Part shown: piece after piece, positions 5,122 through 52,048 of the stretch | Layout of the letters: every line of letters begins with the position of its first letter | Position numbering within the stretch: position 1 is the first letter of the stretch | Source of the DNA: Candidatus Methanomethylicota archaeon | GTDB lineage: Archaea; Thermoproteota; Methanomethylicia; Methanomethylicales; Methanomethylicaceae | NCBI GenBank assembly: GCA_029887765.1 | Contig: JARXPF010000004.1 | Span: forward strand, 610-52,657 | Direction: 5' to 3' | DNA length: 52,048 bases | Made by a program: the position numbers and the translations under genes | Notes under the pieces: generated by a model | The model's input: the letters and a program-made list of their open reading frames with translations, nothing else | What the model was told of the DNA's origin: nothing | Databases searched by the model: none

Positions 5122-6234
5122 TTATGATAAAAGCCATATATTTCCTATGGATACATTATTGACATATTTTAATGCAATTTCTCTACACTTAAATGCTAAA
5201 GTTTTACTAGTTCTTGGAAGATCCTCCATAAGATAACAACCATAAAATCCTAATAATGTATATGGAATATTTGGATTAATTGAACTTATAAATTCAGCTA
5301 TTCCCTTAACTTCTTCTACATCAATATATCCTGGAATAAGTAATGTACTAACAGATAATAATGGTACTTCAGGTCTTTTTTCATATAATCTTCCAAGAAT
5401 TTTTAAATTATTTAATGAAGGTTTATTTGATGTACCACATAAAATAATATTAAGATTTTCATCCCAAGATTTTATATCAAATTTTATATTTCCACCACTT
5501 TCAAGTGCATATTTTCCCATTATTGGAATATATTCTTCAGATATATTTCCATTAGTTTCCCAACAAATTCTTAAAATTCTATTTAATTCTCTTGCTCTTT
5601 CTAAAGAAAATCTACTAGTCTCTAAACAATGTGGCATTTGAGAAGAAGGATCTCCTCCAAAATAACATATACAAGATACACTTTTTTTATCAGCTTTCAT
5701 TGCTAATTCTTTTGCACTAATAAAATTTTTCAAACTTAAAGTAAGTTTTTTATAATGCCAATTTTGACAAAATAAACAATCATAACTACAAGAACCATAA
5801 AATACTGCAAGATTTTCATGAAATACTTCTGGTCCAGGAGAATAGGAGTATTTAGGATAGCCTCTACCAGTACATCCTGGACAGAACCATGATGCTACAC
5901 AATTTGTAGGTAAAGGATCATAATACCATTCTAAAATTCCTTTATCAGGAGTGCCACCAAGTCGAAAAAGATTTCCATTAATATTTTTAACAAGACCACA
6001 AAATCCAATTTCATTTTCTCCAAGAGAACATTTATTTGCACAACCATTACACTTAATACCATTAGGATTTCTAACTGGACTAGGAGGTAAACCAATTTTA
6101 GATCTTATAAACTTACGTTTTTCTTGAGCTATTCTTAATGCTTCTTCTGGTTTTTTTCTAATACAATTTAAGCAAATAGAAAGAAAATTTGATATTGTTG
6201 GATGTGAATTTTCACATAATACACATTTTCCCAT
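5122..6234 (-). CDS. Radical SAM protein, PflA-like, with extra cysteine clusters
   Basis: The 370-residue protein carries a radical-SAM iron-sulfur motif CxxxCxxC (C149, C153, C156) and a downstream GGDP stretch typical of SAM binding. Before this it has three further cysteine groups: C4/C7/C21/C24 (zinc-ribbon-like), C62/C65/C69/C79, and C112/C118/C121, which may bind additional metal or clusters. It resembles the group of archaeal proteins annotated as pyruvate-formate-lyase-activating-enzyme-like. The substrate is unknown. It sits between xpb and moaE on the same strand with short gaps of 36 and 23 bases, so it may be cotranscribed with either. Confidence 0.8.
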   Translation of the reverse strand: MGKCVLCENSHPTISNFLSICLNCIRKKPEEALRIAQEKRKFIRSKIGLPPSPVRNPNGIKCNGCANKCSLGENEIGFCGLVKNINGNLFRLGGTPDKGILEWYYDPLPTNCVASWFCPGCTGRGYPKYSYSPGPEVFHENLAVFYGSCSYDCLFCQNWHYKKLTLSLKNFISAKELAMKADKKSVSCICYFGGDPSSQMPHCLETSRFSLERARELNRILRICWETNGNISEEYIPIMGKYALESGGNIKFDIKSWDENLNIILCGTSNKPSLNNLKILGRLYEKRPEVPLLSVSTLLIPGYIDVEEVKGIAEFISSINPNIPYTLLGFYGCYLMEDLPRTSKTLAFKCREIALKYVNNVSIGNIWLLS

Positions 6235-25715: not shown

Positions 25716-26486
25716 TTGACTTTAAGAAAAAGAGATTTTCCTGAAGTAGGAGAGCTTGTAATAGCAACTCCAGTGAAAATTTATGATCATGGAGCTTATG
25801 TGAATTTAGATGAATTTGAAAAAGTAGGTTATGTTCCAATAGGTGAAGTTGCTTCTACATGGGTGAGAAATATAAGAGATTATATAAAAGAGGGTCATAA
25901 ACTTGTTCTTAAAGTAATAAGAGTTGATGAAAAAAAAGGTCATATTGATTTATCATTAAAAAAAGTAACAGATAGAGAGAGAAAGGAAAAATTAATACAA
26001 TGGAAAAGAGCAAAGAAGTCTGAAAAAATTCTTGAAGAAGTGGCATCAGAATTAAAAAAATCAATGAAAGAAGCTATTGAGAAAATAGGAATTCCATTAG
26101 AAGATCGCTTTGGAGATCTTTATGCAGCAATGGAGGCTTCAGTAATTAATGGACCAAAAGTACTTATTGAAGCAGGAATACCTGAAGATTGGGCAAATAA
26201 AATTTATGAAATTGCAAAACATCATATAGAGCCTCCAATTGTCAAAATTTCTGGAGTACTTACTTTAAAATCAACAAAACCAAAGGGAATTGAAGATATT
26301 AAAACTGCATTATTATTAGGAGAAGAAAATGAAAATATAGAAATTACAAATTTAGGAGCGCCAAGATATAGAATTGAAGTAACTGCTAAGGATTATAAAA
26401 CAGCTGAGGCAATATTAAAAGAAGTTGTTGATAAAATAATTAATAAAATTACAGAATTAGGAGGAGTAGGTTCTTTTACAAGGTGA
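25716..26486 (+). CDS. eif2a: Translation initiation factor aIF2 alpha subunit
   Basis: The 256-residue protein has an N-terminal S1 domain (about 8-85, with YDHGAYVNLDEFEKVGYVPIGEV-like content), a helical middle domain and a C-terminal alpha-beta domain ending GGVGSFTR. It is part of the trimeric factor that brings initiator tRNA to the ribosome. It uses a TTG start behind GTGGTGA. The order rpl44e-rps27e-aif2a-nop10 is the common archaeal one. Confidence 0.95.
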   Translation: MTLRKRDFPEVGELVIATPVKIYDHGAYVNLDEFEKVGYVPIGEVASTWVRNIRDYIKEGHKLVLKVIRVDEKKGHIDLSLKKVTDRERKEKLIQWKRAKKSEKILEEVASELKKSMKEAIEKIGIPLEDRFGDLYAAMEASVINGPKVLIEAGIPEDWANKIYEIAKHHIEPPIVKISGVLTLKSTKPKGIEDIKTALLLGEENENIEITNLGAPRYRIEVTAKDYKTAEAILKEVVDKIINKITELGGVGSFTR

Positions 26487-26491
26487 AATTT

Positions 26492-26665
26492 TTGAAAATA
26501 AAAATGATGAAGTGTAAATCTTGTGGTGAATATACTTTAAGAAAAGATAAATGTCCATATTGTGGAGGAGATTTAAAAAATCCTCATCCTGCAAGATTTT
26601 CTCCTGAAGATAAATATAGTAAATATAGATTAGAATTAATTTTTTCAAAAAAGATTAATAATTAA
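26492..26665 (+). CDS. nop10: Nop10, H/ACA ribonucleoprotein subunit
   Basis: The 57-residue product has CKSCGEYTLRKDKCPYCGG, the zinc ribbon of Nop10, followed by the NPHPARFSPEDKYSKYR stretch that binds Cbf5. It is needed for guide-RNA-directed pseudouridylation. GGTGA ends 7 bases before a TTG at 26492; an ATG at 26504 is also possible. Its 3' end overlaps the convergent aglB gene by 11 bases. Confidence 0.92.
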   Translation: MKIKMMKCKSCGEYTLRKDKCPYCGGDLKNPHPARFSPEDKYSKYRLELIFSKKINN

Positions 26666-49782: not shown

Positions 49783-49882
49783 GCGGGGGTCCCCTAGCCA
49801 GGTTAAAGGGGGAGGACTCAAGATTTAAAAATGGGTTATCCTCTGGCGTAGGCCTTCGTGGGTTCAAATCCCACCCCCCGCA
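49783..49882 (+). tRNA. tRNA-Leu(CAA) with a 15-base intron
   Basis: The acceptor stem GCGGGGG pairs with CCCCCGC at 49875-49881, with discriminator A at 49882 and no encoded CCA. The long variable arm and the GGTTCAAAT T-loop mark a leucine tRNA. The anticodon CAA is at 49819-49821 within the loop CTCAAGA, closed by GAGGA and TCCTC. Bases 49823-49837 interrupt the loop after position 37, the standard archaeal intron site. Confidence 0.93.
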
Positions 49883-51350: not shown

Positions 51351-51362
51351 AAATATATTTAA
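51351..51362 (+). promoter_or_regulatory. Candidate rRNA promoter TATA box
   Basis: AAATATATTTAA follows an AAGGCGTAAT stretch and precedes the GC-rich leader by about 40 bases, which fits a transcription start near 51385. Other AT boxes near 51290-51305 are alternatives. Confidence 0.4.
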
Positions 51363-51404
51363 GAAAACAAAATAAAACTTTGGCACGAACTGGAATTTCA
51401 ACTT

Positions 51405-51485
51405 GCCGCAGCTTCCGGCGGCGTTGGTCATAACCTTACGGGCATAGCCCGAGGAATGAATGACCGCCCTCCAGCTGCGGCTATA
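51405..51485 (+). ncRNA. Folded pre-16S leader element with K-turn-like hairpin
   Basis: A 9-base-pair lower stem (51405-51413 with 51473-51481) encloses an internal loop, then an upper stem of GGC/GCC and GGTCAT/ATGACC (51420-51431 with 51460-51468). Above it a three-base bulge (51455-51457) with G58 and A59 opposite A32-A33 resembles a K-turn. The tip is CCT/AGG and CGGGC/GCCCG with an ATA loop. ATA follows the lower stem at 51483-51485. The outline recalls an archaeal H/ACA RNA, but it could equally be a rRNA processing structure. Confidence 0.5.
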
Positions 51486-51492
51486 TTAATGG

Positions 51493-51539
51493 AGACTTGA
51501 ATAATCCCGATGTGAAACACCATCGGGAAATTCAAGTCT
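51493..51539 (+). ncRNA. Long leader hairpin before 16S rRNA
   Basis: AGACTTGAAT pairs perfectly with ATTCAAGTCT, then a small internal loop (two bases against one), then TCCCGATG pairs with CATCGGGA around an eight-base loop. A further hairpin pairs ACCCAATCAT with ATGGTTGGGGT near 51556-51581. These are probably pre-rRNA folding or processing structures. Confidence 0.6.
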
Positions 51540-51600
51540 TACACAGGCTTGATACCCAATCATGAAATATGGTTGGGGTTATAACAGCCTTGCGACCGTA

Positions 51601-52048
<448 letters not shown>

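Follow-up and report, generated by a model that had tools for sequence, protein, structure and literature searches.

A conserved H/ACA guide RNA element in the 16S rRNA leader across an archaeal phylum

Results

The Leader and Its Genomic Context

As listed in Table 1, the end of the window (the whole stretch of DNA analyzed here, 52,048 nucleotides) carries the 5′ part of a 16S rRNA gene and its leader, in which a TATA-like element, a short conserved sequence, the element described below, a second hairpin and the 5′ half of the 16S processing stem follow one another. The distance of GCACGAACTG from the TATA-like element is nearly fixed in the 11 same-family leaders. The 16S rRNA gene starts at position 51601, and the element therefore ends 115 nt upstream of it. 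Because the conserved TATA-like box and GCACGAACTG, where transcription would start, precede the element, the pre-rRNA probably has it as its first domain.

Table 1. Positions of the leader features in the window.
Feature	Position	Strand	Basis
TATA-like putative promoter element of the rRNA operon, AAGGCGTAAYAAATATATTTA	51353–51361	+	Conserved in 11 same-family leaders
Conserved GCACGAACTG, likely region of the pre-rRNA transcription start	51383–51392	+	Unchanged in all 11 same-family leaders
H/ACA guide RNA element, whole	51405–51485	+	Rfam Pab19 match; own covariance model R1, 76.8 bits; covariation
Lower stem, 5′ strand, 9 bp	51405–51413	+	Fold; 98.1% paired cells over 84 sequences; double changes in 6/7 pairs
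5′ guide strand	51414–51424	+	GGCGG conserved phylum-wide; 16S target scan
5′ guide core, GGCGGCGU	51417–51424	+	Complementary to 16S A1055–C1063 with G1058 bulged
Upper (GA) stem, 5′ strand, U51425 bulged	51423–51431	+	Fold; helix 2 covaries in 6/6 pairs
K-turn strand opposite the bulge, AA in the window, mostly GA in relatives	51432–51433	+	Sequence, alignment
Apical C-stem and loop (capped tip)	51434–51454	+	Fold; helix 3 covaries
K-turn bulge AAT, then GA	51455–51459	+	TGA identical throughout alignment A1
Upper (GA) stem, 3′ strand	51460–51467	+	Fold, covariation
3′ guide CCUCC, pairs with 16S GGAGG 1047–1051 immediately before U1052	51468–51472	+	CTC invariant in A1; target scan
Lower stem, 3′ strand	51473–51481	+	Fold, covariation
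ANA box (ATA), 15 nt past the GA stem	51483–51485	+	A-N-A columns almost invariant
Second conserved leader hairpin	51494–51541	+	Fold, leader comparison
16S processing stem, 5′ half	51545–51591	+	Complement directly after 16S in a same-genus genome
16S rRNA gene, 5′ part	51601–52048	+	RF01959, 409 bits

The core H/ACA proteins Cbf5 (463 bits), Nop10, Gar1 and L7Ae are all encoded in the genome, and the Nop10 gene, recognized in a preliminary description of this DNA, lies in the window itself at 26483–26665 (PF04135, E 8.7e-25). The window also holds an intron-containing tRNA at 49783–49882 (Rfam, 41.8 bits), which was missed by ARAGORN. The second leader hairpin occurs after the guide RNA throughout the phylum, as GGACCU...AGGUCUGA in many families and as GAGACTTGAA...TTCAAGTCTT in the window; its base often reads AUGnGGA / UCUGA, which faintly resembles a box C/D or K-turn pair.

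Structure of the Element

The fold of positions 51400–51490 has an energy of −42.3 kcal/mol compared with a mean of −26.4 kcal/mol for shuffled sequences (z −4.9), and 0 of 200 dinucleotide shuffles folded as well. The preliminary description had proposed a 9-pair lower stem, an internal loop that could be a guide pocket, an upper stem with a three-base bulge and G-A and A-A pairs like those of a K-turn, and a capped tip, and each of these parts is present where it had been placed. The nine pairs of the lower stem contain no mismatch, and the internal loop consists of the two guide strands, for which a matching site is present in the 16S rRNA. The upper stem is formed by GGTCAT and ATGACC (51426–51431 with 51460–51465) and is lengthened by the pairs G51423-C51467 and U51424·G51466, which flank the bulged U51425; the GA stem comprises eight standard pairs and the two K-turn pairs, with this one bulged U. 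The bulged U recurs in the family of the window element and in the published refolding of Pab19 (PMC4652768). The overall arrangement of a lower stem of about 9 bp, a pocket and a GA stem of about 10 bp is that of an archaeal H/ACA sRNA.

In the K-turn, the bulge A51455-A-U51457 is followed by the pair G51458·A51433 and then by A51459·A51432. A K-turn or K-loop in the upper part is what an archaeal H/ACA sRNA should have, and the motif is predicted to bind L7Ae; however, the second sheared pair is A·A and not A·G, which counts against the guide reading. The ATA box had been placed 14 nt from the upper stem; the box is present, although its distance is 15 nt when counted from C51467, a difference that comes only from the choice of the last stem base. 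The value of 15 nt agrees with the spacing rule for ANA boxes, by which they follow the first GA-stem pair at 14–15 nt (PMC4652768). One relative (L032, 2009–2081) has a shortened form of the element in which the apical part is reduced and a K-loop possibly takes the place of the K-turn.

Identification with Covariance Models

At gathering thresholds, cmscan gave no H/ACA RNA in the window, and the lenient Rfam search alone gave a match, in which Pab19 (RF02794, a Pyrococcus H/ACA sRNA) aligns over its full length with positions 51387–51485 at 32.5 bits (E 5e-4). The preliminary description had proposed a search with archaeal H/ACA models; an H/ACA model was thus matched, but below its gathering cut-off. 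This cut-off is 55 bits and was set for the curated family, and the score of the window copy, which falls short of it, counts against membership in Pab19. The RF02794 model is independent of the sequences gathered in this analysis. The other lenient matches (mir-425, ceN84, C0465 and CRISPR-DR57) overlap adjacent hairpins and were judged to have arisen by chance.

The scan of the phylum with RF02794 gave weak matches in 16 of 151 cases and zero matches over the cut-off, and our own covariance model, R1, was therefore built from an alignment of 31 elements, A1. The score of the window element with R1 is 76.8 bits. In A1, the TGA of the K-turn and the CTC of the 3′ guide are invariant, and the GGCGG of the 5′ guide and the A-N-A columns are nearly so.

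Conservation and Covariation

A search with the leader and the 16S rRNA gene covered 61 relatives, and inspection of their leaders showed the element in every one that had a leader. R1 matches 198 of the 299 genomes of the phylum, probably Thermoproteota to judge by the 16S rRNA, nearly always once per genome; the element occurs once per rRNA operon, and the two genomes with two operons each (G212 and G299) carry two. The missing match in about one-third of the genomes was considered as a sign of loss, which was rejected, as most of those checked had no recognizable 16S rRNA gene or had a weaker copy. When no-match genomes were re-examined, the leader truly lacked the element in two families, namely f18, which appears to be Thermoproteaceae-like, and f27. 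These two families, which have lost it from the leader, are represented by four loci (L190, L191, L209 and L211), and U1052 is still there in L190.

The element is located 62–655 nt upstream of the 16S rRNA gene in 86 of the 87 aligned loci, where L133, with a visible but divergent 16S start, is counted among the 86 and L047 is the exception. In f11, f20 and f24 (L029, L033, L034, L127, L198 and related loci), the guide RNA is 190–655 nt from the 16S rRNA gene, and it may have its own promoter in L029 and L198 because a TATA-like sequence lies between the element and the 16S rRNA gene.

The comparison of relatives that had been proposed to examine the pairing bears it out, including that of the upper stem. 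Over 84 distinct sequences, 92.3% of the cells are paired, compared with 67.7% in shuffled alignments and 34–45% when the partner is slid, and 350 cells show double changes, compared with 89 in shuffled alignments, with double changes in all three helices; these values come from an alignment fitted to the model, which favors the structure, although more than 50 of the sequences are outside the model-building set.

Occurrence in Thermococcales and Methanopyrus-like Genomes

In a pattern scan of named genomes, where many matches were chance matches in GC-rich bacteria, Rfam Pab19 was found at 81–95 bits inside the 16S leader of all six Thermococcus contigs that the scan gave. The RNA is present in 71 of the 86 genomes of the phylum to which a Thermococcus genome belongs, and in 30 of 30 further loci inspected in that phylum, the element lies 148–155 nt before the 16S rRNA gene.

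The RNA is also present in five of five Methanopyrus-like genomes (L047, L187, L188, L186 and L189), where no rRNA was found within 1.5 kb of it in any of the five; one of these copies scores 55.4 bits with RF02794, just above the cut-off. In the two examined closely, it is located outside the rRNA operon and upstream of an aspartate carbamoyltransferase gene, which follows the RNA in L047/L115 (the L047 copy being at 5463–5554) and in L187. The position of these copies off the rRNA operon indicates that action in trans is possible, as expected of a guide that works in trans.

Probable Target Site in Helix 34 of the 16S rRNA

Pab19 of P. abyssi is reported to guide the formation of 16S Ψ1017, an experimentally supported target; of its two models, the first has an anomalous 3-nt spacer and the second bulges a U out of the GA stem (PMC4652768). 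The published positions S27, S922, S995 and S1017 (PMC4652768) fall on a U in three Pyrococcus-like 16S rRNA genes when an offset of 12 is applied. A fourth Pyrococcus-like 16S rRNA gene has a one-base difference, and most positions there need an offset of 11. The further P. abyssi positions S891 and S1122 also fall on a U with the offset of 12, but S1122 fails in one of the three genes. With the offset of 12, S1017 therefore corresponds to E. coli U1052, within GGAGG-U-G-CAUGGCCG(U/C)C.

CCUCC pairs with the GGAGG that immediately precedes U1052, and GGCGGCGU pairs with A1055–C1063 provided that G1058 bulges. Both guide strands thus find their site; however, the pocket requires either this bulged target G or a 3-nt spacer, as published for Pab19, which counts against the guide reading. 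A search of the 16S rRNA for target sites had been proposed in the preliminary description, and it leads to helix 34: U1052 is the top-ranked site of the whole 16S rRNA gene in 44 of 61 other genomes, compared with 21 of 610 (3.4%) for shuffled guides. For the genus of the window, the scan was run on the 16S rRNA of the same-genus L004, as the window's own 16S rRNA gene is incomplete, and U1052 ranks second among 16 candidate sites, which again counts against. U1056 was also considered as the target because the best pairing of GGCGGC is with 1058–1063; it was rejected because the P. abyssi numbering puts S1017 at U1052, and it is further ruled out by the C at this position in L040, L140, L141 and L136.

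Guide and target change together in some lineages. The 16S rRNAs of L015, L019, L021 and L022 carry G1053A and G1057C, and the guide there is GGUGGCGGUG or GGCGGUA, with which the pairing is free of bulges. In several lineages, the guide is GGCGGCGGCAU, and an A-U pair replaces G·U at 1056. In many lineages, the pairing goes well beyond the usual pocket (GGCGGCGGCRU). In L120 and L122, GGAGG is changed to GGUGG. U1052 itself is a C in three families (L093, L111 and L147) although the element is kept, which counts against the guide reading, and in L093 and L111 both guide strands are intact. In these two, either the guide has another use or it decays slowly; the retention of the element where the target U is C hints at a chaperone-like second role.

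Discussion

Proposed Function

The element is a real, conserved and ancient H/ACA guide in the 16S leader, of a kind already known. That an RNA of the H/ACA type is built into the rRNA leader, as the preliminary description had suggested, is borne out by the Rfam match, the three covarying helices, the ANA box, the 16S target and the four core proteins. From its sequence and that of its relatives, we consider it likely, with good confidence, that the element is a pseudouridylation guide orthologous to Pab19 and Tko-19 that presents U1052. Of the structured domains of the pre-rRNA, the element would be transcribed first, about 20 nt past the probable start site, and L7Ae would then bind the K-turn, while Cbf5-Nop10-Gar1 would assemble on the stems and the ATA box. 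CCUCC and GGCGGCGU would pair with GGAGG (1047–1051) and A1055–C1063 of helix 34, respectively, presenting U1052 for conversion to pseudouridine. Cleavage sites in the 5′-ETS are known in crenarchaea (review, PMC8339473) and a 16S processing stem is present, and release from the leader is therefore plausible, presumably by the known cleavages in the 5′-ETS and at the processing stem. The RNP may act on the transcript that carries it, in cis and before release, or in trans afterwards.

The alternative that fares best is that the leader element serves chiefly as a chaperone in the folding or processing of pre-16S rRNA, like eukaryotic U3 or snR30/U17, with pseudouridylation secondary or lost; pairing in cis with helix 34 during transcription would delay or order the folding of the 3′ domain. 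The near-universal leader position with one copy per operon, the guide pairing kept in L093 and L111 where U1052 is C, and the pairing longer than the usual pocket in many lineages agree with such a role. Conversely, the ANA box and the length of the GA stem are kept, which only an H/ACA RNP requires; the element lies off the operon in Methanopyrus-like genomes, Thermoproteaceae-like genomes manage without a leader element, and the Pab19 target in P. abyssi is modified (PMC4652768). Taken together, this explanation is quite unlikely. A further proposal, which is somewhat less doubtful but still speculative, is that the leader-borne H/ACA RNP is a cis-acting, co-transcriptional assembly factor for the 16S rRNA and the archaeal counterpart of the U3- and snR30-type processing RNPs. 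The tethered RNP would capture helix 34 about 1 kb downstream, modify the U if one is present and hold the helix until the 3′ domain is able to fold; the main hint of this is that the element is kept in lineages without the target U.

It is very improbable that the hairpin only senses free L7Ae through its K-turn and regulates rRNA processing without any guide role, because this would not account for the co-change of guide and target or for the conservation of both guide strands and of the ANA box, even though the K-turn is conserved with an invariant TGA in A1 and archaeal L7Ae binds K-turns in mRNA leaders (PMC5539422). An ordinary stable hairpin with a chance likeness to H/ACA RNAs, which might be considered as leaders hold other strong hairpins, is hardly credible in view of the Rfam match, the covariation, the ANA box and a target match far above that of shuffled guides.

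As a pseudouridine guide, the element is carried within the precursor of the rRNA it modifies in two archaeal phyla and in one copy per operon, whereby the dosage of the guide is tied to that of the rRNA. The old question of whether archaeal guide RNPs aid the folding and processing of pre-rRNA becomes directly testable in culturable species, and the natural variants without the target uridine are among the material for it. The present Rfam model misses the element in nearly all of one phylum. The leader location, regarded as unusual in the preliminary description, is actually the rule across this phylum and Thermococcales, and it was noted in 2014 for T. kodakarensis, where the snoRNA Tko-19 is located immediately upstream of the 16S rRNA gene and is likely cotranscribed with it (PMC4247193). 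The location is thus already known for Thermococcus, whereas the spread across a second phylum appears to be new; no description of the element outside Thermococcales was found in the literature, where the coverage of subscription papers was limited. Within the literature covered, the co-change of guide and target also appears to be new.

Comparison with Known Systems

In archaeal pre-tRNATrp, a box C/D RNA is encoded in the tRNA intron. The likeness to the present case is that the precursor of the modified RNA itself contains the guide RNA; the difference is that a C/D methylation guide in an intron is replaced here by an H/ACA RNA in a leader. The H/ACA-like sRNAs of Pyrobaculum (sR201–sR210; PMC4652768) come from a related lineage and are likewise K-turn hairpins that guide pseudouridylation, but they mostly have no lower stem and are separate genes, and the Thermoproteaceae-like leaders found here are without the element. 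Tko-19, in the leader of a 16S-tRNAAla-23S operon, is similarly a leader-encoded guide with presumed 16S cotranscription (PMC4247193); it was reported for one Thermococcus species, whereas the element described here extends to a second phylum and dozens of families.

The closest system is Pab19. The window copy differs from it in having A·A for one G·A pair, an ATA instead of an ACA box, a 3′ guide of 5 nt instead of 6 nt, and a host of another phylum. The hairpin plan, the guides GGCGGCGU and CCUCC, the bulged U in the GA stem, the target site in the 16S rRNA and the position in the leader are alike, and by its guides, target and genomic position, the element belongs with Pab19.
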